Shown here one piece after another: positions 5,458 through 45,530 of a stretch of DNA of 64,000 bases (the stretch's first letter is position 1; each line of letters opens with the position of its first letter). The position numbers and the translations under genes are program-made. The notes beneath the pieces are model-generated. The model ran no database searches and was not told the origin of the DNA. It saw only the letters and a list, made by a program, of their open reading frames with translations. The stretch lies in NCBI GenBank assembly GCA_025463135.1, contig JAOAPY010000013.1:186001-250000 (forward strand). Reading direction: 5' to 3'. This DNA comes from Acidobacteriota bacterium (GTDB lineage Bacteria > Acidobacteriota > Blastocatellia > Pyrinomonadales > Pyrinomonadaceae).

Positions 5458-5480
5458 GCCTCTCGACTGCAGAAGAAGAA

Positions 5481-5518: not shown

Positions 5519-5553
5519 CTTTCGTTTCTCCGCGTTTTTCTCGCGCTCGTTCT

Positions 5554-8178: not shown

Positions 8179-8184
8179 GCGAAC

Positions 8185-8292: not shown

Positions 8293-8298
8293 ATTTAA

Positions 8299-10881: not shown

Positions 10882-10984
10882 GTAAGAATGTCCGTTAATT
10901 GATTAATATCAGATTGACTAGTATCTCTGGAGTTCTTGCAACAATGAATCCGTGAATCAAGTCGCCTGGCTTCAATCCCCTCAA

Positions 10985-11048
10985 TCCCGGAGGGACGAAA
11001 TTTCTATAGAAATACATTCCAAAAACAGGCACATCAGCTCCGAAGGAG
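10985..11048. repeat. CCGGAGG-type short interspersed motif pair
   Basis: TCCCGGAGGGACGAAATTTC continues to TATAG at 11009, followed by AGCTCCGAAGGAG at 11036-11048. A close relative lies at 56351-56378. The two halves resemble each other (CTCC/TCCC-GGAGG-A), suggesting a paired repeat. It sits in the 253-bp gap between the DUF5916 start and the end of the DUF4097 gene. Confidence 0.5.
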
Positions 11049-11134
11049 AGGAATGTGCCCCAATTATCCCGAAAATTTCTTCTTTACGATACTGAAGCCA
11101 AAGCGATTGCAGCCACTCATCAATCGCGGCTATG

Positions 11135-13039
11135 TCAGCGTTGGCGCAGGATTACGTGGCCGTCGCCGGTATTGAGTGTAAAAACCGCGCCACCCCGGCC
11201 GACCTTCCAGCGTTTTACACGCGCGGAGGGAGCGGCCTCTTCAGAAATGTTCAGACCCTCGTTGCTTACTTCCTCGGCGTTTGTTTCGATCACGAAGTTC
11301 GAGTCGGCGGGCACACCCAGCACGATTGAACCGTCGCCGGTGTGCGCCTGCAGGCCGGTGAAGGTTCCTTCGAGCGTGATTGATCCATCGCCGGTTCGTG
11401 CGTCTACTTCACCCTGAAAACCTGTTACGCGGATGCGGCCGTCTTCGGTGTTGGCCTTCAGGCGGCCTTGTCCCCCATCGACTTCGATCGATCCATCACC
11501 GCTGCGGGCCACCAACTCTCCGGAAACACCCTGCACGCTTAGGTGTCCATCGTCGGAGGAAAAATTCAGGTTGGCGCTGCGCGGTACGAAAACCTCCAAA
11601 GCGGTCGAGCCGTCATCGTCCGTCCCTTTATTGGTAGTGTTGGCGATGATCGAAATTGACGATCCCTGCTGACTCGCTTCGATGCTGATGTTCTTCAGAG
11701 ACTCTTCATGGTTGGCGCGCTTGACGGCAGTGTAACTAACCTCAGGTTTGTCCCAGGCACGAATTGTTACGGCGCCGTCATAGGTGGAAATTTTGACGCT
11801 GGGTGTTCCGCTAACCGGAAAGCTTTTCGATTCGCGATCGATGAACCTTCCCCAACCTGACTCATTGCCCTTGCCCGCGCCCGCACGGTTGCGAAACGGC
11901 TCGCGCGTTTGTTCGCGCACCTGGCGCTGTACTGTGCGCTGAATCTCACGCTGGGCTCGTTCAACCTCGCGTTGTGACTCGCGGATCGAGCGCTCGACTT
12001 CACGTTGGATCTCGATTTGCTCGTCTCGGTTTAGTCTTTGAACGTCTACCTGCACGCGCGTCGCCGCGCGCGTGGCTTCGCGAATCTCTTCATTGAGATC
12101 CTGCATATGCGTGTCTGATTTGTCACCCTTGTGTTTTTCCTTATTGGCCTGCAGGTTCGTGGAGGGACTCAGAGTTCGCCCATCGCCGGCACGTTTGATC
12201 GTGATGCGGCCATTGACGTTACCCAGCTTGATGCGTGGTCCGCCCGTACCAATTTGTCCAAAAAGCTCATGGCCCACATATTCACCGTCGATCACCGGCA
12301 AGCCGAAGTCGTTACTTACGCCGCCGTGGACGGTGCCGGCGCGCAGTTGCGCGTTGGCGTCAGACGGAATAACCAAAGCAATGTTGCCATTCACTGAATT
12401 GAGCGTGACCGGCTTGGCTGTGTCCAGCTGCGTGAAGGTAGCTTCCAGACCACCATTCACAGTGGAGAGCCTGACTTCGCCCATCAACGCTCGCGCCTTA
12501 ACGTAACCATTAATTGACGAGGCCTTGACATCACCCTCCGCGCCGTCGATATCCAGCGAGCCGTTAATAACCTCAACTGACTCAATACGCGCCCGGCGCG
12601 GAATAGTCAGCGAGTACTCGACAGAGGCCGGGTTGTTGGAACGTCGACCTTCTTCGTCGGTAAACATCTGGTCGCGATCAGGATAGCCCGTCTTGATTCT
12701 GACGCTATCGGCAGTGGCGCTCACTTCGATCTTCGCTTCCTCCAGGCGTTCCCGCCGGTAAGCTCGTTTGACGGCGTCGACCTTCACTTCATTTTGGTCC
12801 CACACGGCGATACGCACTCCGCCATTGATGTTTTCAACGCTGACTCGACCGTTAGCGGAGAGCGGGTAGGATTGATGAAACTCTTCGCGAATCTCGTCGG
12901 CACTGGCTTTCTGCAGCTCCGTCAAATCGGTACTCTGCGCGCCAACCAGGGTGCTGATTGACGCTGCCCTGCCGCGAGTGCCGGACTGCGTCGCCAATGC
13001 GATAGTAATTATGAATGCTGTTATCAGTGTTCTCTTCAT
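11135..13039 (-). CDS. Two-module DUF4097 protein with charged coiled-coil linker
   Basis: A 634-residue exported protein of unknown function. I start it at MKRTLITAFI, which has AAGGA 8 nt upstream. The longer frame reads back through the palindromic element at 13071-13186 and its first 60 codons are not credible. A signal peptide ends near residue 30. The first DUF4097-type beta-solenoid module (about 60-285) has regularly spaced turns such as VENINGGV, ASSINGYV, LSTVNGGL, LNSVNGNI and LGNVNGRI. Residues about 315-382 are almost only Arg, Glu, Gln and Val (REVERSIRESQREVERAQRE), predicted coiled coil. The second module (about 410-634) uses Asp-Gly turns (STYDGAV, SSDDGHL, ARSGDGSI, ANTEDGRI, ARTGDGSI). 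It is the third such gene downstream of the ECF sigma/anti-sigma pair. Confidence 0.85.
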   Translation of the reverse strand: MKRTLITAFIITIALATQSGTRGRAASISTLVGAQSTDLTELQKASADEIREEFHQSYPLSANGRVSVENINGGVRIAVWDQNEVKVDAVKRAYRRERLEEAKIEVSATADSVRIKTGYPDRDQMFTDEEGRRSNNPASVEYSLTIPRRARIESVEVINGSLDIDGAEGDVKASSINGYVKARALMGEVRLSTVNGGLEATFTQLDTAKPVTLNSVNGNIALVIPSDANAQLRAGTVHGGVSNDFGLPVIDGEYVGHELFGQIGTGGPRIKLGNVNGRITIKRAGDGRTLSPSTNLQANKEKHKGDKSDTHMQDLNEEIREATRAATRVQVDVQRLNRDEQIEIQREVERSIRESQREVERAQREIQRTVQRQVREQTREPFRNRAGAGKGNESGWGRFIDRESKSFPVSGTPSVKISTYDGAVTIRAWDKPEVSYTAVKRANHEESLKNISIEASQQGSSISIIANTTNKGTDDDGSTALEVFVPRSANLNFSSDDGHLSVQGVSGELVARSGDGSIEVDGGQGRLKANTEDGRIRVTGFQGEVDARTGDGSITLEGTFTGLQAHTGDGSIVLGVPADSNFVIETNAEEVSNEGLNISEEAAPSARVKRWKVGRGGAVFTLNTGDGHVILRQR

Positions 13040-29667: not shown

Positions 29668-29723
29668 TAGCACAGACTTCAGTCTGTGTTCCCGGACCAA
29701 ATCACAGACTGAAGTCTGTGCTA
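29668..29723. repeat. Paired palindromic element, CACAGACT-TC-AGTCTGTG subfamily, copy 1
   Basis: TAGCACAGACTTCAGTCTG(TG) and its inverted copy flank a 16-bp spacer just after rpoD. The centre ACTTCAGT is shared with the GACAAACT and CCGACT subfamilies. A diverged copy lies at 50627-50701. Confidence 0.85.
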
Positions 29724-29816: not shown

Positions 29817-30623
29817 ATGCCCACGACAAAGGTTGGCGAGCATCGGCTGTACTACGAGATCCACGGCCAGGGAGAGCCGTTAATCCTGGTTCCCGGTTTC
29901 CGCACTGGACTGTGGTTGTGGTTCAGGCAGGTCGAAACTTTCGCACAGAATTTCCGCACGATCATTTTCGATCCGCGCGGGATTGGCAAGTCCGATCAGT
30001 CAGCCTCGCCCCAGACTGTGAGGGCAATGGCTGATGATCTCGCCGGCCTGTTGTCCGCGCTCGAGATCGAGCAAGCTCACGTCCTCGGTGCGTCCTTCGG
30101 CGGTTTTGTCGCGCAGGAGTTTGCGCTCGCCTATCCGCAGCGAACCCGCAGCTTGATTCTCTGTTGCACCAGTTTCGGCGGCCCACGCCATCTGTTGCCG
30201 CCGCTGCACATCTTGCAGGCAATGGCGGCCAACGAGGGTATGAATATGGAAGAGCCAGCCCTTCAGAACTTTCTGATGGTCTTTTCTTCAAAGTTTAGTC
30301 AGGAAGATCCCGAGGCACTCGCAGAGGTTGTGCGCCTGCGCCTTAGTAATCCGGTCAGCGACCAAACCCACTTTGCGCAATTACAGGCAGCGGCTGCTTT
30401 TAATGTCGAGACCAGAGTAGCGGAGATCGAGGCGCCGGTATTGGTCCTGACTGGTGACGAGGACACGCTGGTTCCCCCGGCAAATTCAGAGAACCTGGTC
30501 GCCAAAATTCCCCAGGCTAAACTCTCGGTCATCGCGGGCGGCAGTCACATGTTCTTTATCGAGCAGCCGGAAGAGTTTAACCGTGAAGTCATCAGCTTCA
30601 TCGATTCAATACGAACCAGTTAG
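29817..30623 (+). CDS. Alpha/beta-fold hydrolase
   Basis: A 268-residue serine hydrolase of unknown substrate. The oxyanion region is LILVPGFRTG (22-31), the nucleophile elbow GASFGG carries Ser93, the acid is in LTGDEDTLVPP (Asp214 or Asp216) and the base in GGSHMFFIEQ (His244). The overall pattern resembles 3-oxoadipate enol-lactonase-type hydrolases. It begins a three-gene run with a KAS III-like enzyme 14 nt downstream and an acyl-CoA ligase, pointing to acyl-chain chemistry, for instance thioester hydrolysis. That role is inferred from context only. No clear ribosome-binding site precedes the ATG. Confidence 0.88.
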   Translation: MPTTKVGEHRLYYEIHGQGEPLILVPGFRTGLWLWFRQVETFAQNFRTIIFDPRGIGKSDQSASPQTVRAMADDLAGLLSALEIEQAHVLGASFGGFVAQEFALAYPQRTRSLILCCTSFGGPRHLLPPLHILQAMAANEGMNMEEPALQNFLMVFSSKFSQEDPEALAEVVRLRLSNPVSDQTHFAQLQAAAAFNVETRVAEIEAPVLVLTGDEDTLVPPANSENLVAKIPQAKLSVIAGGSHMFFIEQPEEFNREVISFIDSIRTS

Positions 30624-30637
30624 AACGGGTATTTATC

Positions 30638-31633
30638 ATGACTATGACTTTCGCAAAAATTACAGGCACAGGGTCATTCGTTCCCGAAAGAGTTCTCACG
30701 AACGAGGATCTGAGCCGCATGTTGGGTGAAGACATTAACGAATTCGTTTCACAGGTCGTCGGCATTCGTGAACGGCATGTCTGCGCGGATAACGAGAGCA
30801 CCGCGGATCTGGCTACAGCGGCTGCTCTCAATGCTCTGAATGCGGCCGGCGTTCGGCCCGAGGAGCTGGACCTCATCATTCTGGCTACTGATACTCCGGA
30901 GTATTTGTCGCCCGCAACTTCAGTGGTGGTGCAACATCGACTGGGTGCGACCAACGCCGGCACCTTCGATCTGAACTGCGCTTGTGCGGGATTCGTTACG
31001 GCGCTGGACACCGCGTCGAAATACATAATTGCCGACCCGGCGTATAAAAGCGTTCTGGTAATCGGGGCCTATGCGATGAGCAAGTACCTTGACTGGACCC
31101 AGAAAAGGACAGCCACCATTTTTGCTGACGGGGCCGGCGCTGTCGTACTGCAAGCGGATGCGGAGGGCCCTGGCTTCCTCGCCTCAAAGCTGGTGGCTGA
31201 TGGCAGCTATCACGATCGCATGGGCATCTATGCCGGCGGAACTTTCATGCCTATCACAGAGGATGTCCTGCGCGAGGGCGAATGGACGAAGGTCCGTTTT
31301 GCGAAAAAGTATCCGCCCGAGGTGAATCTGGAAGGCTGGCCGGCGATCGTTCACGAGGTGTTGCAGAAGGCCGATCTGCAACTGGATGACGTCGCGCTTT
31401 TCCTCTTCACCCAGGTGAATTTGAGCACGATCAAAGCAGTAATGAAAGGTTTGGACCTGCCCATGACGCGCACGCATACAGTCATGGAGAAGTGGGGCTA
31501 TACCGGATCGGCGTGCATACCGATGGTCCTCGACGATGCAGTGCGCGCGGGGAAGTTAGAGCGCGGGCAGGTGGTTGTAATGTGCGCGTCGGGTGGAGGA
31601 CTTAATATGGCGTGCGCGGCGTTTCGTTGGTGA
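30638..31633 (+). CDS. KAS III (FabH-like) thiolase-fold enzyme with altered catalytic triad
   Basis: A 331-residue member of the 3-oxoacyl-ACP synthase III group. The nucleophile cysteine is present in LNCACAGF (Cys116). The C-terminal domain aligns without gaps to FabH over the catalytic His and Asn. The usual HQAN reads TQVN (Thr258 for His), and the usual GNTS reads GYTG (Tyr288 for Asn). Decarboxylation of malonyl-ACP needs that His and Asn, so ordinary chain initiation is unlikely. Acyl transfer, as in other divergent KAS III proteins, is possible. The C-terminal SGGGLNMACAAFRW glycine loop is intact. Neighbours are an alpha/beta hydrolase and an acyl-CoA ligase. Confidence 0.9.
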   Translation: MTMTFAKITGTGSFVPERVLTNEDLSRMLGEDINEFVSQVVGIRERHVCADNESTADLATAAALNALNAAGVRPEELDLIILATDTPEYLSPATSVVVQHRLGATNAGTFDLNCACAGFVTALDTASKYIIADPAYKSVLVIGAYAMSKYLDWTQKRTATIFADGAGAVVLQADAEGPGFLASKLVADGSYHDRMGIYAGGTFMPITEDVLREGEWTKVRFAKKYPPEVNLEGWPAIVHEVLQKADLQLDDVALFLFTQVNLSTIKAVMKGLDLPMTRTHTVMEKWGYTGSACIPMVLDDAVRAGKLERGQVVVMCASGGGLNMACAAFRW

Positions 31634-31745
31634 AGAATCGCGATGGCTAATAAAGGCCCCATTCATTTTCCATTTCTCATTCACCAATCCGCGAATGAAA
31701 AATGGAAGTGGTGAATGCTCTGATTGATCCCGTGGCATTCGTTCT

Positions 31746-33533
31746 ATGAAATACCGAAACATCTATTCACTCTTTCGTGAGCGCGTCGCACAGTACCGCG
31801 ACCGCGATGTTTTCTTCGTTCGCGAAGACGATCACTGGAAAGGGATTTCCTGGGACGTATTTGACCGCGAGGCGCGCGCGTTCGCCTCGGCCCTGATCGT
31901 TTCGGGGCTGCAAAAAGGCGGCTCAGTGGCCATCCTAATGGGCAACGTGCCCGCCTGGCCCATCAGCGATCTCGGTACGATTCTGGCGGGCGGCGTAAGT
32001 GTAGGTCTTTACCCCACCAGTTCCGCGGAACAATGCCAATACGTCATCAACCACTCGGACGCTGAATTCGTCCTGGTCGATTCACCTTTGCAGCTGGACA
32101 AAGTACTCAGCGTTCAAGCCTCACTCGTGACAGTGAAATCGATCATCGCCCTGGATGAATCACTGGCGCGCGATAATCCCGGAGTGATGAGCTATCAGCA
32201 ATTCCTGCAAGTGGGAGCAGAACATCTGTCAGCCACCAGCGAGGTTGTTGAAATGCGAGCAGGTAATGCTCAACCGGACGATACCGTCATCATGGTCTAT
32301 ACGTCCGGCACGACTGGACTGCCAAAAGGCGCTTGCCTGAGTCACCGTTACGTGATCAATAGCGTCGAATCGCTTCATCAGGTAATTCCCTTTTCGGATT
32401 CAGATGTCGCCTTCTCTTACCTTCCCTATTGCCACGTAGCCGAGCGTATTTCGGGTCTCTACAACCGGCTCTATGCCGGCGCCTCCGCGTACTTCGTCAA
32501 TGATCCAACGAAACTCTGGGACTACATGATGGAGTTGGGCCCGCGGATGTTTCCCAGTTTGCCGCGGTTTTTTGAAAAGGTTCATGCGCGTATCGTTGCT
32601 GATCTGGAACAGGATACGCCTGAGGAACAAAGACGTTTTGCCGACGTGCTGACCCTGGGGCGCCAGATCAGTCGTCTGCGGCAAAACAGGGCTGATATTC
32701 CGCAAGGACTCACACAGGAGTACGACCGTGTGGCCGGACCGGTCCTCGAGAGAGTGAGACGTTACTTTGGCGGGCGCATTGAGTTTGCGACCTCTGGTGG
32801 GGCGCCTTTGCCGACTGAGATCGCGGAATTTTTTGATGCCTTGAGTATTCCGCTGTTACAGGCCTACGGCTTGACGGAAAATGTTTGTGTTGCTTTCAAC
32901 CGTCCTGACGACTATAGATTCGGCACCGTGGGACCGCCGATGCCGGGTTGTTCTGTGCGCATAGCCGACGATGGAGAAATTCTGGTGCAGAGTGAGATGA
33001 TGTTCAGCGGCTATTACAAAGAGCCGGACAAGACTGCGGAAGTTTTCCGCGACGGTTGGCTGCTGACCGGCGATTTGGGTGAGTTGGACGCCGATGGCTT
33101 CCTAAGAATCACCGGACGTAAGAAAGAAATCATCGTCACCTCGACCGGAAAAAATATCTCACCGGCCCTGATTGAAAATCTTTTGAAAGAGCATCACCTT
33201 ATCAGTCATGCCCTGGTGTATGGTGACGGGAAGAGCTATCTGGTTTCACTCTTGACGCTCAATCAACTCGAGACCGAAAGCTTTGCCCGCTCGCACGGAA
33301 TTGGCTACGCCGACTTTGCAGAGTTGACCCGGAATAAAAATGTGATTGAGCTGGTCGGCAGAATTGTAGCCGGAGTCAACAACCGGGTTTCATCCACCGA
33401 AGCAATCAGGAAGTTCGCGGTCCTGGATCACGATCTGACAATTGAGGCGGACGAGATCACCCCTACGTCGAAGATAAAGCGGACGATCGTTTCCGAGCGA
33501 TACCGCGACATTTTAGAACGCCTCTACGCGTGA
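31746..33533 (+). CDS. AMP-dependent long-chain acyl-CoA synthetase
   Basis: Activates a carboxylic acid to acyl-AMP and then acyl-CoA. The 595-residue protein is of the long-chain FadD15-like class. It has the P-loop MVYTSGTTGLPKGACLSH (about 180-197), the A5 motif LLQAYGLTENVCVAFN, the adenylation motif WLLTGDLGELDADGFLRITGRKKEIIVTSTGKNISP and a C-terminal Lys in TPTSKIKRTIV. It is third in the run with the hydrolase and KAS III homologue, separated by 112 bp that hold an AT-rich inverted repeat (CATTTTCCATTT type). Substrate chain length is not predictable from sequence. Confidence 0.92.
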   Translation: MKYRNIYSLFRERVAQYRDRDVFFVREDDHWKGISWDVFDREARAFASALIVSGLQKGGSVAILMGNVPAWPISDLGTILAGGVSVGLYPTSSAEQCQYVINHSDAEFVLVDSPLQLDKVLSVQASLVTVKSIIALDESLARDNPGVMSYQQFLQVGAEHLSATSEVVEMRAGNAQPDDTVIMVYTSGTTGLPKGACLSHRYVINSVESLHQVIPFSDSDVAFSYLPYCHVAERISGLYNRLYAGASAYFVNDPTKLWDYMMELGPRMFPSLPRFFEKVHARIVADLEQDTPEEQRRFADVLTLGRQISRLRQNRADIPQGLTQEYDRVAGPVLERVRRYFGGRIEFATSGGAPLPTEIAEFFDALSIPLLQAYGLTENVCVAFNRPDDYRFGTVGPPMPGCSVRIADDGEILVQSEMMFSGYYKEPDKTAEVFRDGWLLTGDLGELDADGFLRITGRKKEIIVTSTGKNISPALIENLLKEHHLISHALVYGDGKSYLVSLLTLNQLETESFARSHGIGYADFAELTRNKNVIELVGRIVAGVNNRVSSTEAIRKFAVLDHDLTIEADEITPTSKIKRTIVSERYRDILERLYA

Positions 33534-33543: not shown

Positions 33544-33632
33544 ATGTCCGACAAACTTTAGTTTGTCGCTGATTGTGCTACAGGCTGGTAGCTTGTGGTA
33601 CATAGATCGACAAACTGAAGTTTGTCGGACAT
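33544..33632. repeat. Paired palindromic element of the GACAAACT subfamily (89 bp)
   Basis: ATGTCCGACAAACTTTAG.. at the left and its inverted partner ending GTCGGACAT at the right, separated by a unique spacer. It lies between the acyl-CoA ligase stop and the histidine kinase start. The left arm carries a T for the C of the usual centre. Confidence 0.9.
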
Positions 33633-33656
33633 TTTGTTTCGTTGAATGGATCCATA

Positions 33657-36002
33657 ATGCGCGATCGATTTGTACTCGACAGAAAAGAAAACATTCTCTT
33701 CATCAACTTCGCCGATCTGCGCATCGAGAGCCGCGAGCAAGTTGATGAGTTCGCCGGCATGGTGCGCGAGGCGGTCGAGGAACAAGGCAAGAGAGTCTAT
33801 TCGATCGTCAACTACGAGGGCACGGAGATCGCGCCCGAGATCGTGGAATACTATGGCGAGCGCATCAAGGCCCTTCAGGATCGCTATGCAATCTCGACGG
33901 TGCGTTACTCATCAAGCGGTCTGACTCGCTCGGTCCTGCGTTACCTGGGGGCGGCCGTCGATCTCGAATCGAACACCTTCACCACGCGCGACGAAGCCAT
34001 TCGCGCCATTCGCGAAAAAGAAAGCCGCCGGGCAGGTCGCGGAACAATTGCGGCCCGCACAATGCTCGGGCTGCACCGCACGCTGCTGGGTAAACTACTC
34101 CTCGGCTGGTTCGTGGGTCTGGGGTTGCTCGCAGGCATCTACTTTGTAGTCCTGCTTCGCGTGAACGATCCCGGGCAATTGCAAATGGCGCACACGTTGG
34201 GAGCCGCGGTCGTTATCGTCTGGTTCCTGGCTGCGTCACTATGCAGCGCCATCGTTTACTTCACAGTGCTGCGTCCTATTGGACAGATGGATCGGCTGGT
34301 GCGCAGTTTGTTTATCTCGGGACCCGTTGAGCCCATCAAAACCTCGAGTTCGGATGAAGTGGGAGAACTGGCCAGAGTTTTGAATGAAGCTGCGATGCAA
34401 CTGCGCCGAGACATCGAACGTCTGAGCGGTCTTTACCACATTTCGCTCATGATGGGGACCAGTACCGAAGTCAGCAGAATTTGCGAATTGCTCACACGCA
34501 AGGTGGGCCGTTTGCTGGGCGCGCAGATGGGAGTGATCCTGTTGCACGACGAGCCGGGCAATTTCCTGAACGCACAGCTTCCGGCCTATGGGGTGAGTGA
34601 CGATCAAGTCCGCCTGCTGCGCTCCGATCTGAACGAACGAAACATCGCCACCTGGGTATTCAAAACCGGCGAGCCCTACCTGACAAACGACGTCGCCAAT
34701 GATGATCTGATCAGCCGCTCGGCTGCGGAATTGCTGGGCGTGAGCGAGATCCTCGCGGTTCCCCTGCAGGCCGGAGAGCGTACCCTGGGCACGCTGGAAG
34801 TGATGAACAAAGCAGGTGGTTTTGAAGAAGAAGACACGCGTTTGCTGACTATCTTTGCCTCGCAAGCCGCGCAGTTGTTGGTTAGTGCTCAACTCTTTGA
34901 ACAGGTGCGCGAGTCCGAGGAACGTTACCGGCAAATCTTTGACAGCACGCTGGACGGACTCTTCCGCAGTTCAGCGGAAGGGCAACTGGTCACGATCAAT
35001 GTCGCTCTGGCAACGATGCTCGGCTTTGCAAGCGCTGAAGATCTGGTGGGCGCCAGCTTCGTTGACGATCTCTTTGTCGATCATGCGGTTGGCCAGCACC
35101 TGATGGCAGAGTTATCTCGATGCGGACAGGTTCTGGACGCTGAGTGCGAGCTGCGCCACCGGTCCGGCGCTCGCCTGCCTGCGCGCGTTAGTATCAGCGT
35201 CGTAAAGGACAAGGCAGACCAACAGTTCTACCATCTGGGGATTGTCAAGGACATCACCGAACAAAAGCGCCTCTCCGAACAATTAATCATTTCCAAGCAA
35301 CTGGCCGTCGTCGGTGAGCTCGTAGCCGGCGTGGCCCACGAGGTTCGCAATCCACTTTGTGGTATCACCGCGACCCTGAGCGCGTTGGCGAGAAAATTGG
35401 AAGACGCGCATGAAGTTCGTCCTTTTATCGACGTTGTCATGACCGAAGCACATCATCTCAACGAACTGATGGAGCAATTGCTGGAACACAGCCGCCCGGT
35501 GCAACTCGACAGCCACATTGAAGACATTCGCGACCTGCTTCAGGAAGTTCTCGGCGAGTGGAAGGGTCAATCGGAGTCCAGGCAAGTCGTGCTCGAACTG
35601 GAATGTCCCGAGCCATTACCTCATCTGCGGCTCGATCGACGTAAGATGCACGGTGTCTTCGCTAACTTGATCGATAATGCGCTGCAACACACTGCGCCCG
35701 GCGGCAAAGTTCAGATCAAATTGTCCCGGCAATTCGAATCGTCGCGGGCGGGGGCCTTTTCAAATCTTCAGATCGAAGTACAGGATAACGGAGCCGGTAT
35801 CTCGCCCGAAAACCTCACCAGGGTATTCGAGCCGTTCTTCACCACGCGCAGCAGCGGTACCGGGCTCGGCCTGGCGATTGTGCGCAAAACCGTTCACGAT
35901 CACGGTGGCGCCATCACAGTGAGTTCCAGTCCCGGTAAGGGTGCCGCGTTTCTGATTAACCTGCCTCTGGAATTTAACGGGCATGTCCAACAGCAAAGAT
36001 AA
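33657..36002 (+). CDS. Hybrid-input sensor histidine kinase (STAS-like, HAMP, GAF, PAS, HisKA, HATPase)
   Basis: A 781-residue membrane kinase. Order of parts: an N-terminal soluble STAS/SpoIIAA-like domain (about 1-120), transmembrane segments at 145-168 and 183-205, HAMP (205-255), GAF (262-415), PAS (420-540, starting [20 protein letters not shown]), and HisKA with the phospho-acceptor His561 in [10 protein letters not shown]. The ATPase domain has N box LIDNALQH, G1 [10 protein letters not shown] box FEPFFTTR and G2 GTGLGLAIV. The protein phosphorylates the response regulator whose gene overlaps it by 20 nt. The ATG at 33657 is preferred to a TTG upstream. A soluble domain before the first membrane segment is unusual and suggests a cytoplasmic input. 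Confidence 0.93.
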
Positions 36003-37347
36003 AATTCTGGTCGTCGACGACCAGCCGTCGGTGCGATTCGGCCTGCGCAGTCTGCTGCAAACCGAAGGCTATCGCGTGCTGGAAGCGGAAACCGGAGCGC
36101 AGGCCCGGTCGCTGGTCACCGAACAAGCGCCGCAGTTGATCCTGCTGGATCTGCGTCTTCCCGATATCAACGGGTTGGATTTGCTGCCGCAGCTTAAAGC
36201 CATCGACGACGATGTGCCGGTCATTATCCTCACCGCGCACGGCACGATTGACACAGCCATCCATGCGATGAAGCAAGGCGCCGAGAACTTTCTCACCAAG
36301 CCATTCGACGCCGACAGCTTGATTATTCTGATCGCCAAGACCCTCGAACAGAGTCGCACGCGTCGCGATCGCTTGCTGATCGGTCTCGCTCAGGAACGCC
36401 TGGCCTCGGAATATTTTCTGGGACAGAGCGAGTCGATCGTGCGCATTCACAACCGCATTGAACGTCTGGCAGCCTCGGACACTACGGTCATGCTGCAAGG
36501 CGAAACGGGTACGGGCAAAGGCATGATGGCTCGCCTGATTCACCGGCTCAGCGAACGACATGCGAAACCATTCGTGACCATCAACTGCGCGGGACTAAGC
36601 CGCGAATTGTTGGAGTCGGAACTCTTTGGTTATGAAAAGGGAGCGTTCACCAGTGCCGTGCAAAGCAAACCAGGCCTCTTCGAACTGGCCCATGAAGGGA
36701 CAATGTTTTTTGACGAGATTGCTGAAATGGAGCTCTCGGTGCAGGCCAAACTGCTGAACGTGCTCGAGCAAAAACGATTTCGGCGGGTGGGCGGTGTGCA
36801 GGAAAAGGAAGTTGACGTGCGACTGTGTGTGGCGACGAATAAGAACCTGCAGGGAGAAGTCAAACGCGGTCGCTTTCGTGAAGATCTCTATTACCGTCTC
36901 AGCGTGATGCCGATCACGCTGCCGCCGCTGAGAGAGCGCCGTGAAGACATCCTGCCACTGGTCCAGCATTTCATCACGTACTTTGATCAGAAGTTGAACC
37001 GTCGCGTGCAGGGCATCACTCCCAAAGCCGAAGTTCTGCTCGAAAGCTACAACTGGCCCGGCAACATTCGCGAGCTACGCAACGTTATCGAGCGCGCCAT
37101 AATCCTCTGCTCCGGCGATCGGATTCACGCAAGCGATCTGCCACTGGGCGGCGTTGAAGCCTGGGAAACGACCGCCTCCGGGGAAGACGGCGAGCAGTTT
37201 CTGTCGCTGGAAGAAGTGGAGAATCTTCACATTCAACGCATCCTTACGGCGACCAACCAGAACCTCAGTCGCGGCGCCGAAATTCTGGGCGTCACCCGCA
37301 CCACGCTCTACAACAAGCTCCGCAAGTATGGTCTGGATAAAACCTGA
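35983..37347 (+). CDS. NtrC-family sigma-54-dependent response regulator
   Basis: Activates sigma-54 promoters on phosphorylation. The 454-residue protein has a receiver domain (about 5-120) with phospho-site Asp56 in LILLDLRLPD and KPFDA near the end. An AAA+ domain follows with Walker A GETGTGKG and Walker B GTMFFDEIAEM, and with LFGYEKGAFTSA, the sigma-54 contact loop (canonically GAFTGA, here Ser for the second Gly). After YNWPGNIRELRNVIERAI comes a Fis-type helix-turn-helix (NLSRGAEILGVTRTTLYNKLRKYGL). It overlaps the histidine kinase gene by 20 nt, so the two are a coupled pair. A sigma-54-like promoter sits downstream, before the Oar-like receptor gene. Confidence 0.95.
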   Translation: MSNSKDKILVVDDQPSVRFGLRSLLQTEGYRVLEAETGAQARSLVTEQAPQLILLDLRLPDINGLDLLPQLKAIDDDVPVIILTAHGTIDTAIHAMKQGAENFLTKPFDADSLIILIAKTLEQSRTRRDRLLIGLAQERLASEYFLGQSESIVRIHNRIERLAASDTTVMLQGETGTGKGMMARLIHRLSERHAKPFVTINCAGLSRELLESELFGYEKGAFTSAVQSKPGLFELAHEGTMFFDEIAEMELSVQAKLLNVLEQKRFRRVGGVQEKEVDVRLCVATNKNLQGEVKRGRFREDLYYRLSVMPITLPPLRERREDILPLVQHFITYFDQKLNRRVQGITPKAEVLLESYNWPGNIRELRNVIERAIILCSGDRIHASDLPLGGVEAWETTASGEDGEQFLSLEEVENLHIQRILTATNQNLSRGAEILGVTRTTLYNKLRKYGLDKT

Positions 37348-37833: not shown

Positions 37834-40800
37834 ATGACCTCCCGGAACAAGTCAGGCCTAATCCTCGCTCTATGTATTTTGCTCGTTGCGAGCGCCACAG
37901 CGATGTCGCAAAGCCAAACCACAGGCCGTATCGTTGGTACTGTTACCGATGAAAAAGGCGGTGTTATCCCGGGAGCGGACATCACCGTCACCAATAAAGC
38001 TACCGGCGAGGAGCGCAAGACTGTCGCTGATGAATCCGGGCACTTCATAGTGCCGCTGTTAGCTCCGGGATCCTACACAGTGGTCGTCACCGGCACCGGC
38101 TTCAAAAAATTCATTTCAGAGGACGTCCGCGTAGCACTCACGGAAACGAGCACCGTCAACGCCGCGCTGGTCGTCGGTTCCGTCGCCGAGACAGTTACCG
38201 TGAATGCAGCGCCGCCGCTGGTGCAGACTGAGGGCGCGCAACTGGGTCGAGTGGTTGATTCGCGCGCAGTTTCAGAACTACCGTTGGCAACGCGCAACTT
38301 CACGCAGATACTGGGACTGTCGCCCGGCGCAGCGACCTATCTGCCGGATAACACAGCGGTGGGACGCAACTCACAAAATATTTCTGTTAACGGCGGTCGC
38401 GTTACCAATAACAATTTCCAGATCAACGGCGTGGATGCGAATTCCATGGGCACAAATTCCGCGCCCTCGCTCGCAATTCCGGCGCCCGAAACAATTCAGG
38501 AGTTCAAGGTGCAGACCTCGCTATACGACGCGACCTTTGGCCGTTCCGGCGGCGGCAATATCCAGGCAGTAACAAAGAGTGGGAGCAACAGCCTCCATGG
38601 CGGCGCCTACGAATATCTGCGCAACCAATCGCTGAATGCCAACAATCCATTTTTGAAAGCCGCGGGTGTGGCGCGGCCGGTGCTCAAACGAAACGTGTTC
38701 GGCGGCTTGCTGGGCGGACCGATTAAGAAGGACAAAGCATTTTTCTTCGTTTCCTATCAGGGTACGCGCGAACGCAATGGCGCTTCGCCCATCAACAGTC
38801 TTTCGTCCAACGTCCTGGTTGATCCTAAACTGACTAACGATCGCTCTGAGGCGACGCTCAAGGCAGCTTACGGTCTGGCAGCAATACATCCCACGGCGCT
38901 GGCCCTCTTGAATACCAAACTTTCCAACGGACAGTTTCTGATTCCCACCCCTACAGCGGCCAACGGCACCTATTCGGGCTCGACGCCGTCGATCTTCAAT
39001 GAAAATCAGTTCAACGGGAACATCGATTATCGTTTGAACGACAAGAATACGTTCGCTTTCAAATTCTTTTATTCAAACGCCCCGCAGACGCTCGTGCTGC
39101 CAAGCTTTCTCGGTGGTGGTCCAAACGTGCCGGGCTTTGGCAACTTTCAGCAAAACAACAACCGCCTGCTGACGATGCAGTATGTGCACATCTTCAGCCC
39201 GAACGTGTTCAATGAACTACGCGCCGGCTATAACTTCATTCGCGTCGATGCTTTTCCCGAGGAGCCGGTTAATGACTCAGCCCTCGGCATCAACCGCGTC
39301 AACGCCAACGCTTTTCCCGGCCTGGGTTTAATTCGCATAAACGCCGCCGCTGGTGGGGTGGTGATTGGCACCTCGGCGACCATCGACGTGAAAGCAAAGG
39401 CACCGTCGACCACCTTGGCTGACACGCTTTCAATTACGAAGGGCAAACACAATTTTCGTGTAGGCGGCGAGTATCGCTACAACGAAAATAATTATGTACT
39501 GAATTTCTTTACGCGCGGCCAGGTTGATTTTCTGAGCTTTACCAACTTTCTGCAGGGAACAACGTTTGTTTCAATCTTTGGCAGCGGCATCGGCGATCGC
39601 AGCTTGCGAGCCAGCGACTACAACCTCTATGCGCAGGACGACTGGAAGGTTAACCGCAAGCTGACCTTGAATATGGGATTGCGTTATGAGCTGGACTTGC
39701 CGGCGTACGACACGCGCGGCCGCATCGCTACGTTCGATCCCACGCTTTACGTTCCGCGTCCGGCGATAGGTGGTGCGGTCGTTGGACCACCGATCGGCGG
39801 TTACGTGCAGGCCGGGAACGTCATTCCCCAGTATGACGTCGCGAGTATGCCCAACGTCGGCAAGCGCGTAGTCAACAGTGTCGATCCGAATAACTTCGCG
39901 CCGCGGGTGGGCTTTGCTTACTCGCCGCTCGAGTCCGGGAAACTCGTGGTGCGCGGCGGTTACGGGATTTTCTATTCACGTACTTCGTTCCAGTACATTA
40001 CGCTCAATGTGATCGCGCCGCCTACCTATGTCTTCGGCGTTAATGTGGGCGCGCCATTGTCTAACCCGTTCTTCCCCGCCCCGGCGCAGAATCAATTTCC
40101 GACCCTGGTGCCCGGCGTCGCCCTGTCAGGAACGCTATTCGATCGCGGCATTCGAACGCCGTACATCCAGCAGTACAACGTCAATGCCCAGTACGAAGTC
40201 TTAAAGGATTACCTGTTTGAGGTTGCTTACGTTGGCACTCATGGTATCAACCTGTTTCGTCAAATCGCCATCAACCAATCCCGGCTGGCAAGCACTGCGA
40301 ATCCGATCACGAATGCCGTGACGGGAGCCGTGATTACAACCAACACGGCCGCAAACGCTGCGTTGCGTGCGCCATTCCAGGGCGTCTCCCTTAACGGTTT
40401 TTTCCAGAACCAGTCAACCGCACAGTCAAATTACAATTCGCTGCAGGTGAGTCTGACTCGACGCTTTTCGCAGGGCCTGCAATTCCTGGCCTCTTATACC
40501 TTCGCCAAGTCGATCGACAACGCTTCGGGTCAGGGCGGCGGCGCCGGTATCGGCGGCGTATTGAATCCGGGTGCGGTCGGCGAGACCAGCGCGATTCTGG
40601 GCAATCAACGCAACAACCGCGCTAATCGCGGTATCTCAGACTTTGACCGCAAGCATCGATTCGTTTTCAGCGCGCTCTATGATTTGCCCAAACCGAAATT
40701 TGCCGGCGACTCTGCCGTTGCCAAATGGCTGCTGTCTGATTGGCAACTGGCCGCCATCGCAACGTCGATGTCGGGCTTGCCGATTGACATCGCGGACACC

Positions 40801-41295
40801 GGCGCCGGCTCCTTCTATGGTCTGTCGGGTGGCAGTGCGCCGCTCGCGCGTCCTAATCTGGTCAGCAATCCCTTCAGTAATGTCCCCGCCGGCTACTACT
40901 TCAATCCGTTCGCATTTGCTCGTCCGGTGGTAGTGGCCGGTGCGGTGATACCCAGCTCAGGCGGGACAGCGACGGCGGCCGCGGTGGGCACGGACTTCGG
41001 CAACGTCGGACGTAACATCCTGCGTGGACCACATCAAAATAATGTGGACTTCTCGATCATCAAGCGCTTTCGGTTTGCCGAGACGAAGAGCCTGGAGTTC
41101 CGCACCGAATTCTTCAACCTCTTCAACAATGTCAACTTCGCTAATCCGATCAGCGACTTGAACGCAGTCCCGGCGACCAACTTCAACGCCGACGGCACCA
41201 TTAATCAGGCCCTGGGAGCTGGCCGCTTCGGCAAGATCATCTCTGCCAGCAACAATCCCCGATTAGTTCAGTTTGCGCTGAAGTTCAACTTCTAA
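37834..41295 (+). CDS. Oar-like TonB-dependent receptor with carboxypeptidase-regulatory domain
   Basis: An outer-membrane transporter or adhesin of 1153 residues. A signal peptide (1-25) is followed by a carboxypeptidase-regulatory-like beta-sandwich (about 28-115, GRIVGTVTDEKGGVIPGADITVTN). A TonB plug region comes next (about 125-255, with LPLATRNFTQILGLSPG and QEFKVQTSLYDATFGRSGGGNIQAVTKSGSN). A long beta-barrel ends in an aromatic residue (LVQFALKFNF). A good AAGGAG site precedes the ATG. Proteins of this type are expanded in Acidobacteriota, often for glycans or peptides; the substrate here is unknown. Control by the adjacent kinase/NtrC pair through the sigma-54-like promoter is an inference. 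Confidence 0.92.
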   Translation: MTSRNKSGLILALCILLVASATAMSQSQTTGRIVGTVTDEKGGVIPGADITVTNKATGEERKTVADESGHFIVPLLAPGSYTVVVTGTGFKKFISEDVRVALTETSTVNAALVVGSVAETVTVNAAPPLVQTEGAQLGRVVDSRAVSELPLATRNFTQILGLSPGAATYLPDNTAVGRNSQNISVNGGRVTNNNFQINGVDANSMGTNSAPSLAIPAPETIQEFKVQTSLYDATFGRSGGGNIQAVTKSGSNSLHGGAYEYLRNQSLNANNPFLKAAGVARPVLKRNVFGGLLGGPIKKDKAFFFVSYQGTRERNGASPINSLSSNVLVDPKLTNDRSEATLKAAYGLAAIHPTALALLNTKLSNGQFLIPTPTAANGTYSGSTPSIFNENQFNGNIDYRLNDKNTFAFKFFYSNAPQTLVLPSFLGGGPNVPGFGNFQQNNNRLLTMQYVHIFSPNVFNELRAGYNFIRVDAFPEEPVNDSALGINRVNANAFPGLGLIRINAAAGGVVIGTSATIDVKAKAPSTTLADTLSITKGKHNFRVGGEYRYNENNYVLNFFTRGQVDFLSFTNFLQGTTFVSIFGSGIGDRSLRASDYNLYAQDDWKVNRKLTLNMGLRYELDLPAYDTRGRIATFDPTLYVPRPAIGGAVVGPPIGGYVQAGNVIPQYDVASMPNVGKRVVNSVDPNNFAPRVGFAYSPLESGKLVVRGGYGIFYSRTSFQYITLNVIAPPTYVFGVNVGAPLSNPFFPAPAQNQFPTLVPGVALSGTLFDRGIRTPYIQQYNVNAQYEVLKDYLFEVAYVGTHGINLFRQIAINQSRLASTANPITNAVTGAVITTNTAANAALRAPFQGVSLNGFFQNQSTAQSNYNSLQVSLTRRFSQGLQFLASYTFAKSIDNASGQGGGAGIGGVLNPGAVGETSAILGNQRNNRANRGISDFDRKHRFVFSALYDLPKPKFAGDSAVAKWLLSDWQLAAIATSMSGLPIDIADTGAGSFYGLSGGSAPLARPNLVSNPFSNVPAGYYFNPFAFARPVVVAGAVIPSSGGTATAAAVGTDFGNVGRNILRGPHQNNVDFSIIKRFRFAETKSLEFRTEFFNLFNNVNFANPISDLNAVPATNFNADGTINQALGAGRFGKIISASNNPRLVQFALKFNF

Positions 41296-41434: not shown

Positions 41435-42964
41435 ATGTTCGCCAGAGATTGGACGGCCCGCAGGGCTTTGTCCTCGCCCGACAAGGTGGCGATTATCGAT
41501 GCCGCCACTGGCGGCCGTCTAACCTACAAAGAGTTAGACGAGCGGGCCACACGGCTCGCAAACCATCTTCGCCATCACTGTGGGATTCGCGCCGGCGACC
41601 GGATTGCAGTGCTGGCGATGAACCGGGCCGAGATTCTCGAGGCCTTCTTTGCCGCTGCCAAGCTCACTGCCATCTTGGTTCCACTCAACTATCGCCTCGC
41701 TCCTCCCGAGCTGCAATATATTTTGGAAGACAGCGAGCCCGCGGTATTGCTTTACGAAAACGAGTTTGCGCCCGCGCTGGAACAATTGCGTCCGCATGTT
41801 GCGATCGAGCACTACATCGAATTGGATGGACCGACCGCCGCCAATTACGAGCAGGCCTTGAGAGAGGCAAGCACGGCCGCGGTCGAAGTTGAATCATTCG
41901 ATCCGGAAATGCCTGTGCTCATCATCTATACCTCAGGCACAACGGGCAGACCCAAGGGAGCCTTGCTCTCGCACCGCATGCTCACCTGGAATTCCATCAA
42001 CACGACGATTGGCTGGGACATTATCTCCAGTGATATCACGACTGTGCATATGCCCCTGTTCCATACCGGGGGCTTCAACGTGTTGACCCTGCCGTTGCTG
42101 CATGCCGGCGGCACGGTAGTGATGCTGCGATCCTTTGCTGCGGACAAGGTTTTACGGGCCCTCGAAGAACATCGCTGCACAATCTTCTTCGGTGTGCCGA
42201 CGATCTTTCAAATGATGCTGGACTCGCCGCAATTCGACGCGATTGATCTAAGCGCCATCCGCTATTTCATCTCGGGCGGTGCACCCTGTCCCGTGCCGCT
42301 GATCGAAGCGATTCAGAAACGAGGCATAGCCTTTACGCAGGGCTACGGCCTCACCGAAGTAGGACCAAACTGTTTCCGTCTCAGCCTCGACGATGCTTTG
42401 CGCAAAGCCGGTTCGATCGGTTTCCCGACTCTCCATAGCGAGGCGCGCATCGTCGACGAGACGGGTCATGACGTTGCGCCCGGCGAGATTGGCGAACTGA
42501 TCCTGCGCGGCGGGCACGTCTGCTCCGGCTACTGGAGAAACAGTGAAGCCACGGCCGCGGCCCTTAGCGATGGTTGGTTTTATACAGGCGACCTGGCGCG
42601 GCAGGACGAGGAAGGCTATTACTATATCGCCGGGCGTGCTAAAGATATGATTATCTCGGGCGGCGAAAATATCTATCCGGCTGAAGTCGAAGCCGTGTTG
42701 CATGAGCATCCGGGAGTCGCTTCCGTGGCCCTGCTTGGCTTGCCTGACGCAAAGTGGGGCGAACGGCCAGTTGCAGTCGTCATTTCCAGAGATACAACCG
42801 TCACCGCCGAAGAGATTGTCGAGTTCTGCGCCGGAAAGCTGGCGCGCTACAAAATTCCCAAAGAAGTCTTCTTCGTCCAGGAATTTCCCCTTCTCGCCTC
42901 GGGTAAGGTGTACAAGCGCGTGCTCAAGGAAGAGATCGAAAAGATCGCGAACGGAAATGTGTGA
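41435..42964 (+). CDS. AMP-dependent acyl-CoA synthetase (FadK/medium-chain type)
   Basis: A 509-residue ANL-superfamily ligase. Motifs: P-loop IIYTSGTTGRPKGALLSHR (about 166-184), TQGYGLTEVGPNC, FYTGDLARQDEEGYYYIAGRAKDMIISGGENIYPAEVE and the C-terminal catalytic Lys in PLLASGKVYKRVLKEE. It is of the short FadD/acyl-CoA synthetase class, shorter and different from the 595-residue ligase at 31746-33533. No partner enzymes of a pathway lie beside it, and the next gene is an MFS permease. Fatty or aromatic acids are both possible substrates. Confidence 0.92.
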   Translation: MFARDWTARRALSSPDKVAIIDAATGGRLTYKELDERATRLANHLRHHCGIRAGDRIAVLAMNRAEILEAFFAAAKLTAILVPLNYRLAPPELQYILEDSEPAVLLYENEFAPALEQLRPHVAIEHYIELDGPTAANYEQALREASTAAVEVESFDPEMPVLIIYTSGTTGRPKGALLSHRMLTWNSINTTIGWDIISSDITTVHMPLFHTGGFNVLTLPLLHAGGTVVMLRSFAADKVLRALEEHRCTIFFGVPTIFQMMLDSPQFDAIDLSAIRYFISGGAPCPVPLIEAIQKRGIAFTQGYGLTEVGPNCFRLSLDDALRKAGSIGFPTLHSEARIVDETGHDVAPGEIGELILRGGHVCSGYWRNSEATAAALSDGWFYTGDLARQDEEGYYYIAGRAKDMIISGGENIYPAEVEAVLHEHPGVASVALLGLPDAKWGERPVAVVISRDTTVTAEEIVEFCAGKLARYKIPKEVFFVQEFPLLASGKVYKRVLKEEIEKIANGNV

Positions 42965-42973: not shown

Positions 42974-43047
42974 GGACACGGAGAATCGGAGAATTGGCGA
43001 CATGGGGATTTCTCGTGGGGCGTTTCTTTCTCCGCGTCACCGTGTCC
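42974..43047. repeat. GGACACGG...CCGTGTCC inverted repeat
   Basis: Terminal GGACACGG and CCGTGTCC enclose GGAGAATCGGAGAATTGG and TTTCTTTCTCCGCGTC. Related CGCGGGGA/CTCCCCG-type elements are at 5481-5518 and 45541-45664. It lies upstream of the MFS gene, and the longest frame for that gene reads through it. Confidence 0.65.
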
Positions 43048-43091
43048 GCCATGCTCCGTGTCGCTGCGCCTCGTTCTCGGTTCACGGCCCT

Positions 43092-44447
43092 ATGACGACC
43101 CGCACAAAAACCATGTTGGCGCTGGCGATCCTGTTAGCCATCAACACGCTCAACTTTTTTGACCGCCAGGTGTTCGGCGCGATTGCTGAACCAGTCAGAA
43201 AAGAATGGGGCTTGAGCGATAGCGCCATCGGGCTGATCGGTACAGCTTTCACGCTGGTCTATGCGGCAGTGGGACTACCCCTCGGCCGTCTGACCGACAG
43301 CGGCTCGAGAAAGAAGGTCCTGGCGTTTGGTGTCTTTGTTTGGAGTTTGTTGACAGCCGCGTCCGGTCTGGCGATGAACTACTGGCAACTGTTTACTCTT
43401 CGTCTCGGTGTAGGAGTCGGCGAAGCCACGTGCGCGCCCGCCGCCACGGCCCTCATTGGTGACCTGTTTCCCGCCGGCAAACGCTCGAAAGCCCTCTCCA
43501 TTTTCATGCTCGGCCTGCCGGTGGGAATAGCGCTAAGCTATGCGATAAGCGGGTCAGTAGCACACGCATACGGATGGCGCGCGGCCTTCTATGTCGCCGG
43601 TCTGCCGGGGCTGCTTTGTACGCTGGCGGTCTTGTTCATTTACGAGCCGCGCCGGGGATCAGCCGAACTCCATGACATCGGCGCGCGTAAACGGGCGGGC
43701 TCGCCCTTTCGCCTGGTGCTTTCGATTCCCACGATGTGGTGGATCATAGCTTCAGGGGCGCTGCAAACTTTCAACATGTATGCGATCGGTCAGTTCTTGA
43801 CGCCTTTCCTCATGAGGTATCACCACCAGGAAATTCGCACGGCTGGTTTTACGACGATGCTGGTCTTTGGACTGTCCGGGATTCCCGGCCTGTTGCTGGG
43901 CGGAGTTATCGGCGATGCCGTAGGCAAGCGCTGGTCGCATGGCCGGCTGTCTTTGGCAACCGTGTGCTTGCTCGTTTCGGTACCGCTGATCTTTCTGGCG
44001 CTGACGCGTCCGGGCGGAGCAACGACCAGCTTCATAATCCTGATGGGCTGCGGGGTGGCCGTGATGAATGTCTATTATGCGACGGTCTACCCGGCGATCC
44101 AGGATGTGATCGAGCCGTCGTTGCGCGGCACCGCGATGTCCATCTACTTTTTCGCCATGTACGTTCTGGGCGCCGCCCTGGGACCATTGGGCACCGGACT
44201 GGCCAGCGACTTCTTCACGGCACGCGCGGCGGCCGCCCATGGCGTAATTGAAATTACACAGAAGACGCTCGAGCCCTTTCGCGCTGAAGGCTTGCATGCG
44301 GCGATGTATATCATCCCGGCGCTCGGGTGTTTGCTTACTCTGGTTCTGTTTGCAGGTTCGCGGACAATCACCAGGGATATGGAGCGATTGCACAGTTGGA
44401 TGCGCGAGACCGAGCCCAGCGAGACACCTTCGGCAATGGGCGTTTAG
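43092..44447 (+). CDS. MFS transporter, Spinster-like
   Basis: A 451-residue inner-membrane permease with about 12 transmembrane helices. I start it at MTTRTKTMLALAILL; the 30 codons upstream are repeat-derived. The MFS A-motif loop is GLPLGRLTDSGSRKK after TM2, and TM1 carries the LNFFDRQVFGAIAEPVRKEWGLSD signature of Spinster-type transporters, which export lipids or take up organic acids. The substrate is unknown. The stop codon lies within the palindromic element at 44440-44531, so the last residues (SAMGV) may be repeat-influenced. Confidence 0.9.
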   Translation: MTTRTKTMLALAILLAINTLNFFDRQVFGAIAEPVRKEWGLSDSAIGLIGTAFTLVYAAVGLPLGRLTDSGSRKKVLAFGVFVWSLLTAASGLAMNYWQLFTLRLGVGVGEATCAPAATALIGDLFPAGKRSKALSIFMLGLPVGIALSYAISGSVAHAYGWRAAFYVAGLPGLLCTLAVLFIYEPRRGSAELHDIGARKRAGSPFRLVLSIPTMWWIIASGALQTFNMYAIGQFLTPFLMRYHHQEIRTAGFTTMLVFGLSGIPGLLLGGVIGDAVGKRWSHGRLSLATVCLLVSVPLIFLALTRPGGATTSFIILMGCGVAVMNVYYATVYPAIQDVIEPSLRGTAMSIYFFAMYVLGAALGPLGTGLASDFFTARAAAAHGVIEITQKTLEPFRAEGLHAAMYIIPALGCLLTLVLFAGSRTITRDMERLHSWMRETEPSETPSAMGV

Positions 44448-44531: not shown

Positions 44532-44567
44532 CTGGACACGCACGTTCGAACTTTCGCGAGATTGATT

Positions 44568-45530
44568 ATGCGCCGGCGCTCCTTATTACTGATTACAGCC
44601 ATACTGCTGCTGGCGCCAATGGTGCGGGCAGGAACGTGGACCAACGGCACCGTCACTAACTCTTTCGGCTCGCGCAATTACAAACTGTGGATCCCTGATG
44701 GCTACAGTCGTAAGCATGCAGTGCCGCTGGTAATGATGTTGCACGGTTGCACGCAAACTCCCGACGACTTTGCAGCCGGCACGCAGATGAATCAGGTGGC
44801 TGACAGAGAAAATTTCCTGGTTGTCTATCCAGAGCAGCCCGCCGGCGCCAATGCACTCAAGTGCTGGAACTGGTTCGAAGCAGCTCATCAATCCCGTGGT
44901 CAGGGCGAACCAATGCTGTTGGCCGACATCATCAAGAAACTTCGCGGCACGTACAAAGTGAATCCCAAACGTGTTTTTGTCGCCGGAGCATCCGCCGGCG
45001 GCGCGATGGCCGCGATCATGGGAGCCACCTACCCTGATTTGTTCGACGCCATCGGTATCCAGTCAGGCCTCGCGTACAAATCAGCGACGAATCTCGCTGA
45101 GGCTCGTCCGGCAATGAACCATGGTCCCGCGGATCCGGCTCGCCTGGGCCAACTGGCGTTCCAGTCGATGGGTAAGACAAGGCAGAAGATGCGAGTGATC
45201 GTCTTTCAGGGGACAAAAGACAGCGCCGTGGCCCAGGTAAACGCCGATGCATTGATCAGTCAATGGGCGAAGACAAATGATTACCTCGACGACGGCCGCG
45301 CCAATAACAGCGTCGATGACGTGGCGGACGACAGCAGTCAGGGCGTGGTCGCCAACGGATATGCTTTTACGAAATATGTTTACAACGATCGCTCGGGCAA
45401 ACCGCTCATGGAGAAATGGATCGTCCAGGATATGAAGCACGCATGGTCGGGCGGATCCCCCAAGGGCACCTACACCGACCCCAAAGGTCCCAACGCCAGC
45501 GAGGAGATGTGGCGGTTCTTTAAAGGATGA
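44568..45530 (+). CDS. Secreted PHB-depolymerase/feruloyl-esterase-type hydrolase
   Basis: A 320-residue exported esterase. A signal peptide (about 1-22) precedes the fold. The oxyanion loop is PLVMMLHGCTQTPDDFA, the nucleophile elbow VAGASAGGAMA holds Ser142, the acid is in VFQGTKDSAV and the base in DMKHAWSGG. This pattern is the LpqC/PHB-depolymerase family (alpha/beta hydrolase, CE1-like). Substrates in the family include short-chain polyhydroxybutyrate and feruloylated glycans, so the substrate is uncertain. I use the ATG at 44568; a TTG two codons earlier is an alternative. Confidence 0.9.
   Translation: MRRRSLLLITAILLLAPMVRAGTWTNGTVTNSFGSRNYKLWIPDGYSRKHAVPLVMMLHGCTQTPDDFAAGTQMNQVADRENFLVVYPEQPAGANALKCWNWFEAAHQSRGQGEPMLLADIIKKLRGTYKVNPKRVFVAGASAGGAMAAIMGATYPDLFDAIGIQSGLAYKSATNLAEARPAMNHGPADPARLGQLAFQSMGKTRQKMRVIVFQGTKDSAVAQVNADALISQWAKTNDYLDDGRANNSVDDVADDSSQGVVANGYAFTKYVYNDRSGKPLMEKWIVQDMKHAWSGGSPKGTYTDPKGPNASEEMWRFFKG

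Follow-up and report, generated by a model that had tools for sequence, protein, structure and literature searches.

A KAS III-like subfamily with a rebuilt active site and a conserved gene neighbourhood in Acidobacteriota, Myxococcota and Chloroflexota

The window analysed here is a stretch of 64,000 nucleotides from the genome of an Acidobacteriota bacterium (assembly GCA_025463135.1, contig JAOAPY010000013.1, positions 186,001 to 250,000), and the gene under study lies at 30638..31633 on its plus strand. It codes for a protein of 331 aa that resembles beta-ketoacyl-acyl carrier protein (ACP) synthase III (KAS III, FabH) and carries the Pfam domains ACP_syn_III and ACP_syn_III_C, both well over cut-off. 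The protein is a member of a distinct, monophyletic subfamily with a fixed residue signature, in which the active site has been rebuilt as a whole, the nucleophilic cysteine excepted. This is an uncharacterised new variant of the KAS III-like family, and it comes with a conserved operon. In the open-licence literature, nothing relevant was found on the subfamily or its operon.

The first-pass annotation had described threonine and tyrosine in place of the catalytic histidine and asparagine of FabH, next to an intact cysteine. This was borne out by phmmer, which aligned the protein to FabH of Aquifex aeolicus without gaps over the C-terminal domain. Thr258 is found at the position of the catalytic His and Tyr288 at that of the catalytic Asn, while Cys116 is intact. 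The replacement extends further: Phe304 of FabH corresponds to Ser318, Thr81 to Asp85, and Asp140 or Glu to Tyr145, and the residues in contact with coenzyme A (CoA) or ACP are altered too. Decarboxylation in FabH relies on His244, Asn274 and Phe304, and the ACP-docking patch includes Lys214 and Arg249. All of these are altered in the subfamily, as are Phe87, Trp32, Arg36, Arg151 and Phe213 (numbering of Escherichia coli FabH, whose sequence was verified by motif positions only). Canonical sequences show no or little variation at the ten positions; Trp32 is kept in a quarter of the clade. The natural reading is that malonyl decarboxylation has been lost, and this reading is strengthened because Phe304 and the ACP-docking residues have also gone.

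The signature residues of the clade are Asp85, Cys116, Tyr145, Met147, Asn230, Trp234, Thr258, Gln259, His280, Tyr288, Gly290, Ser291, Cys293 and Ser318. Asp85, located 31 residues before Cys116, was aligned by hhalign with the catalytic Glu of both the Myxococcus and the archaeal-type 3-hydroxy-3-methylglutaryl-CoA (HMG-CoA) synthase, in which the acidic base precedes the Cys by about 32 residues. An AlphaFold2 model of the monomer (predicted local distance difference test score 96.6) is FabH-like, with a Z score of 48 and a root-mean-square deviation of 1.5-1.6 Å. The protein also scores 272.8 bits against a cut-off of 249 bits for the NCBIfam subfamily 'beta-ketoacyl-ACP synthase 3', and because this cut-off is passed, automatic annotation would probably name it FabH or beta-ketoacyl-ACP synthase III.

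Relatives came from 60 whole genomes and from GTDB contigs, which were scanned for them; in GC-rich loci the genes were located by tblastn with seeds. Every relative with about 42% identity or more has Thr and Tyr in place of His and Asn, and all sequences below about 41-43% have HQAN and GN(T/M/S)S. Among 104 distinct sequences, Asp85, Cys116, Tyr145, Met147, Asn230, Trp234, Gln259, Tyr288, Gly290 and Ser291 are fully conserved, followed by Thr258 (103/104), Ser318 and Cys293 (102/104 each) and His280 (100/104). In the canonical FabH set, the catalytic His and Asn are found in 38 of 38 sequences. Relatives with canonical His and Asn would have spoken against the first-pass annotation; those in the clade keep Thr and Tyr. 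With 104 distinct homologues sharing it, the change is far beyond chance, and a local mutation or sequencing error is ruled out. A decayed housekeeping FabH is ruled out as well, as the genome of the window has a separate canonical FabH elsewhere (HQAN/GNTS).

After the signature had been defined, 297 Acidobacteriota genomes were searched with a profile, and the 15 signature residues recur in the loci fetched in this way; a few of these held-out loci duplicate earlier ones. Three matches of this search fall under a gap in the scores (about 300 versus at least 449 bits) and are canonical. Later loci from Myxococcota and Chloroflexota also agree with the signature, apart from one copy with Asn258. 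This copy (locus L171; L-numbers are labels of homologous loci in the comparison) is from Chloroflexota, branches deeply within the clade and has kept Tyr288 and Asp85. It may represent an early branch together with L170.

A tree was calculated from 35 members of the clade and 20 FabH sequences after removal of the signature columns. In it, the split between the clade and FabH has 100/100 support, so that the clade is not an artefact of these columns. A nearest-relative test that included PRK06840-like and HMG-CoA synthase sequences was weak because of long branches. Among the genomes sampled, the clade occurs in 39 of the 297 from Acidobacteriota (including the genome of the window), in 75 of the 195 from Myxococcota and in 11 of the 251 from Chloroflexota, and one copy is present in a Myxococcus xanthus genome. 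The scan of GTDB contigs added single loci from Bacteroidota/Ignavibacteria, Neomarinimicrobiota, Acetothermia and Thermotogae. As one Acidobacteriota copy (L028) groups with those from Chloroflexi, Acetothermia and Ignavibacteria in the tree, lateral transfer of the gene is suggested.

The gene neighbourhood was compared at 71 distinct clade loci that are flanked by 3 kb or more on either side, counting same-strand matches within 6 kb. An acyl-CoA ligase occurs at 60 and an alpha/beta hydrolase at 59 of these loci. Both occur together at 58, compared to none of 21 canonical FabH loci, so that these two neighbours, which the first-pass annotation had singled out, are conserved. At the canonical loci a short-chain dehydrogenase/reductase (SDR), presumably FabG, is the only one of the counted classes to be found, in 20 of 21 cases. 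The clade loci further contain any type of transporter (49), TetR regulators (44), TonB receptors (40), SDRs (30), SCP-x thiolases (15) and DUF35 proteins (3). The recurrence of TonB receptors, Liv ATP-binding cassette (ABC) or major facilitator superfamily (MFS) transporters, TetR, SDR and SCP-x thiolase, the last sometimes accompanied by DUF35, points to uptake-coupled CoA catabolism rather than to fatty-acid synthesis.

The layout differs between lineages. With KS for the KAS III-like gene, ABH for alpha/beta hydrolase and ACS for acyl-CoA ligase, the order is TetR-TonB-ABH-KS-ACS-ABH(-MFS) in Blastocatellia. In Holophagae and Thermoanaerobaculia it is TetR-TonB-SDR-KS-ABH-ACS-thiolase-ABH or TetR-KS-thiolase-SDR-Liv ABC, in Chloroflexi and Acetothermia SDR-ACS-ABH-KS-ACS-thiolase-DUF35-ABH-Liv ABC, and in Myxococcus TetR-KS-ACS. 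A TonB-type receptor is near the KAS III-like gene at most Acidobacteriota loci. The ligases are not a single orthologous family across the clade and some loci have a CoA-transferase instead; it is therefore the class of step, not the gene, that is conserved. At two Chloroflexota loci, a CoA-transferase of the acetyl-CoA hydrolase/transferase type adjoins the KS gene, and one of them also has a MaoC hydratase. KS, thiolase and DUF35 genes occur together in L052-L054 and in L177 and L178, the latter two having been found after the 71 loci were counted.

Some of these loci show additional features. Near the KS gene in L152 and L164, a second non-canonical KAS III-like protein is encoded, directly upstream in L152 (5711-6721 of 1-12000, oriented to KS on the plus strand) and at 1334-2347 in L164. 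This second type is PRK06840-like, appears by eye to have Cys-His-His, and is accompanied by a CoA-transferase-like gene. In the Thermoanaerobaculia loci L156 (8084-9322) and L164 (9355-9669), again oriented to KS on the plus strand, a protein of 105-110 aa without a Pfam match is encoded between thiolase and SDR. It ends with GPDVSHPNTIGDLxIVGPDVTHPNFIYWNKDSV.CP.QL. The Thermoflexia genome of L080 and L138 also codes for an archaeal-type HMG-CoA synthase beside a thiolase gene.

In the window itself, the KAS III-like gene is the second of three genes on the plus strand. It follows, after a gap of 14 nt, an alpha/beta hydrolase (29817..30623, 268 aa; Pfam Abhydrolase_1, 1.3e-31) and precedes, after 112 nt, an acyl-CoA ligase of the long-chain/FadD11-like type (31746..33533, 595 aa; Pfam AMP-binding, 1.2e-72). 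The hydrolase is esterase-like. In its sequence a GASFGG nucleophile elbow can be read, as can the Asp and the His that complete a Ser-His-Asp triad; its closest solved relatives are Est1 esterases (1e-45). Hydrolase orthologues are found directly 5′ of the KAS III-like gene in Blastocatellia, Chloroflexi and Acetothermia. The ligase has FadD11 as its top NCBIfam match (357 bits, below the cut-off of that model), and its position adjoining the KAS III-like gene is conserved in Blastocatellia. Palindromic short motifs, agactgaagtctgtg and gacaaactgaagtttgtcgg with close variants, were noticed by eye at about 29685-29720 and 33545-33635, flanking the three-gene unit on both sides.

The set in the window seems to run on to about 43 kb. 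A sensor histidine kinase (33642..36002, plus strand, 786 aa) and an NtrC-type sigma54 response regulator (35983..37347, plus strand, 454 aa), both assigned to their class from sequence, accompany the cluster in some Blastocatellia only. The kinase occurs at the same place in L036, L037, L116 and L134, where the regulator shows 70-75% identity. They are followed on the plus strand by a TonB-dependent receptor-like outer membrane protein with a CarboxypepD_reg domain (37834..41295; Pfam OMP_b-brl_4, 6e-197, and TonB_dep_Rec) and by a second acyl-CoA ligase, ACS2 (41435..42964, plus strand, 509 aa). ACS2 shares 51% identity with the ligase found in the Acetothermia cluster, has a 70% identical copy in L141, which is the continuation of the G049 cluster, and is a probable outer member of the set. 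It is uncertain if the next two genes on the plus strand belong to it. One codes for an MFS transporter (43002..44447); in other Blastocatellia, too, the cluster is followed by MFS genes, with about 32-34% identity. The other codes for an esterase of the PHB-depolymerase family (44562..45530; Pfam Esterase_PHB, 2.2e-39), a 50% identical copy of which lies beside ACS2 in L141. The order of kinase and regulator or of TonB receptor, ACS2 and esterase recurs in a few relatives (L036, L037, L116, L134 and L141). The three-gene acyl-processing set that had been proposed for the window thus stands with respect to its conserved neighbours, while the set is larger, looks catabolic, is linked to uptake, and has a ligase that is not one orthologue.

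With FabH the protein shares fold, length, Pfam domains, the nucleophilic Cys and 33-37% identity. It differs in that the Cys-His-Asn triad is absent across the clade (Cys is kept, with Thr258 and Tyr288), the Phe of the FGGG/FGAG loop and the contacts W32, R36, R151, K214 and R249 have been lost (W32 in most of the clade), and the gene sits in a catabolic neighbourhood. OleB is a haloalkane-dehalogenase-like enzyme, whereas the window has an esterase-type Ser hydrolase, together with acyl-CoA ligases and a TonB/Liv/TetR context; judged by class, these seem to differ from OleB, OleC and OleD. The clade has in common with OleA the thiolase superfamily, alpha/beta hydrolase and AMP ligase neighbours, and a non-decarboxylative Claisen reaction on acyl-CoA as proposed here for the clade. 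However, OleA is remote (about 63 bits by phmmer, versus about 195 bits to FabH), and it works with His285 and with a Glu117 that the other subunit contributes (PMC7064751). In the clade, the canonical His position is Thr. Membership in OleABC is therefore not supported, and the likeness to the OleA/B/C order that had been pointed out holds for the gene classes and for nothing beyond them.

Residue changes have precedents in other members of the superfamily. Steroid aldolases Ltp2 and Sal belong to the SCP-2 thiolase branch and have DUF35 partners; in these, a Tyr took over catalysis and the nucleophilic Cys was lost (PMC12329534). Like the new clade, which has SCP-x/DUF35 relatives nearby, they are members of the thiolase superfamily encoded in catabolic clusters. 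No superfamily precedent named here (HMG-CoA synthase, Ltp2/Sal, CerJ/ChlB3, PhlABC) has the residue combination of the clade.

Because the same active-site replacement occurs in 104 relatives, mostly beside genes for uptake and CoA activation, the KAS III-like enzyme probably catalyzes a different, still undescribed reaction. We propose that it is a catabolic Cys-acyl enzyme that acts on CoA thioesters, rather than on ACP, in non-decarboxylative C-C or acyl-transfer chemistry, most likely a step of the Claisen/retro-Claisen (thiolase-like) or aldol type, to which we give an even chance. A compound would enter via a TonB receptor, porin, MFS or Liv ABC system, the hydrolase would open an ester, and the acyl-CoA ligase or CoA-transferase would activate the resulting acid. 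Cys116 would then receive the acyl group, and a bond would be made or broken without malonyl decarboxylation. Asp85 is likely the general base; Tyr288 may serve as acid, and Ser318 and Thr258 may shape the oxyanion site. Products would be processed by the SDR, thiolase/DUF35 and MaoC neighbours. We infer this order of steps, as well as the catabolic direction, from residues and gene neighbourhoods. The broader proposal, that an undescribed active-site set of Cys, Asp, Tyr, Thr and Ser performs a new CoA-dependent step on C-C bonds in an undescribed catabolic pathway of Acidobacteriota, Myxococcota, Chloroflexota and other phyla, is held a little more tentatively.

Several observations weigh against the main proposal. 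The SDR beside the gene could equally reduce a newly made beta-ketoacyl-CoA, and Ltp2/Sal are only a loose precedent, having no nucleophilic Cys. The set varies, with only TetR, KS and ligase adjacent in Myxococcus, and in three Labilithrix loci (L068, L070, L078) the signature is intact while none of the usual neighbours lies within 6 kb. The neighbour classes are common in bacteria, and the control consisted of canonical FabH loci, not of random loci.

Alternatively, the enzyme might be a pure acyltransferase or thioesterase, passing the acyl group of Cys116 to an alcohol, an amine or water with no change of C-C bonds. KAS III-fold acyltransferases with altered triads do exist, including CerJ and ChlB3 (C113, H296 and D301 in ChlB3), and the triads of the CerJ/ChlB3/DpsC type are Cys-His-Asp or Ser-His-His (PMC9573744). 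The invariance of Cys116 would fit, and an ester made in this way could be a substrate of the hydrolases encoded nearby. When compared by their described triads, however, none of these enzymes has Thr/Tyr; the CerJ type keeps a His next to the Cys, while neither canonical position is a His in the clade, and the invariant Asp at the position of the HMG-CoA synthase base suggests alpha-carbon chemistry. We consider a pure acyltransferase unlikely. That same Asp85, corresponding to the HMG-CoA synthase Glu, would suit an aldol enzyme which joins acetyl-CoA and a beta-keto acyl thioester, or the reverse, possibly in a complex with thiolase and DUF35. Fold and Cys nucleophile are shared with HMG-CoA synthase, and the trio of KS, thiolase and DUF35 genes seen at some loci forms complexes in archaea (thiolase/HMG-CoA synthase) and in PhlABC (PMC6392133, PMC12329534). 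Yet HMG-CoA synthase retains the His and Asn that the clade has replaced by Thr and Tyr, the window protein scores only 43-68 bits against model cut-offs of 244-360, and apart from the few loci mentioned above most of the clade has no DUF35 nearby, which makes this aldol reaction improbable.

A decarboxylating ketosynthase, in which Thr, Tyr and Ser stand in for His, Asn and Phe and a FabG-like SDR reduces the product towards a modified fatty acid, is in our view more improbable still. It would be in line with the FabG-like SDR that immediately precedes the gene in Holophagae, Bacteroidota, Neomarinimicrobiota and part of the Chloroflexi, with the FabH fold and with the NCBI family score. It is at odds with the clade-wide loss of all known decarboxylation and ACP-docking residues and with the transport and CoA-activation genes all around; no ACP gene was recognised nearby in a search that was not exhaustive. 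A non-catalytic partner subunit, a scaffold for thiolase, is very improbable. The KAS III-fold subunit PhlA is catalytically silent, and the Claisen residues that it has lost are exactly the Cys and Glu pair (PMC6392133). In the clade, Cys116 and Asp85 are invariant in all 104 sequences, and only 15 of 71 loci have a thiolase neighbour.

New chemistry has arisen repeatedly in the thiolase superfamily through residue changes, and the clade adds a new residue combination to it. Genomes with this gene probably annotate it as beta-ketoacyl-ACP synthase III although every decarboxylation residue has gone. As a copy is present in Myxococcus xanthus, the gene is testable in a genetically tractable organism. 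An active-site replacement that is fixed across phyla, in conserved operons linked to uptake, suggests a hitherto unknown catabolic route in soil bacteria.

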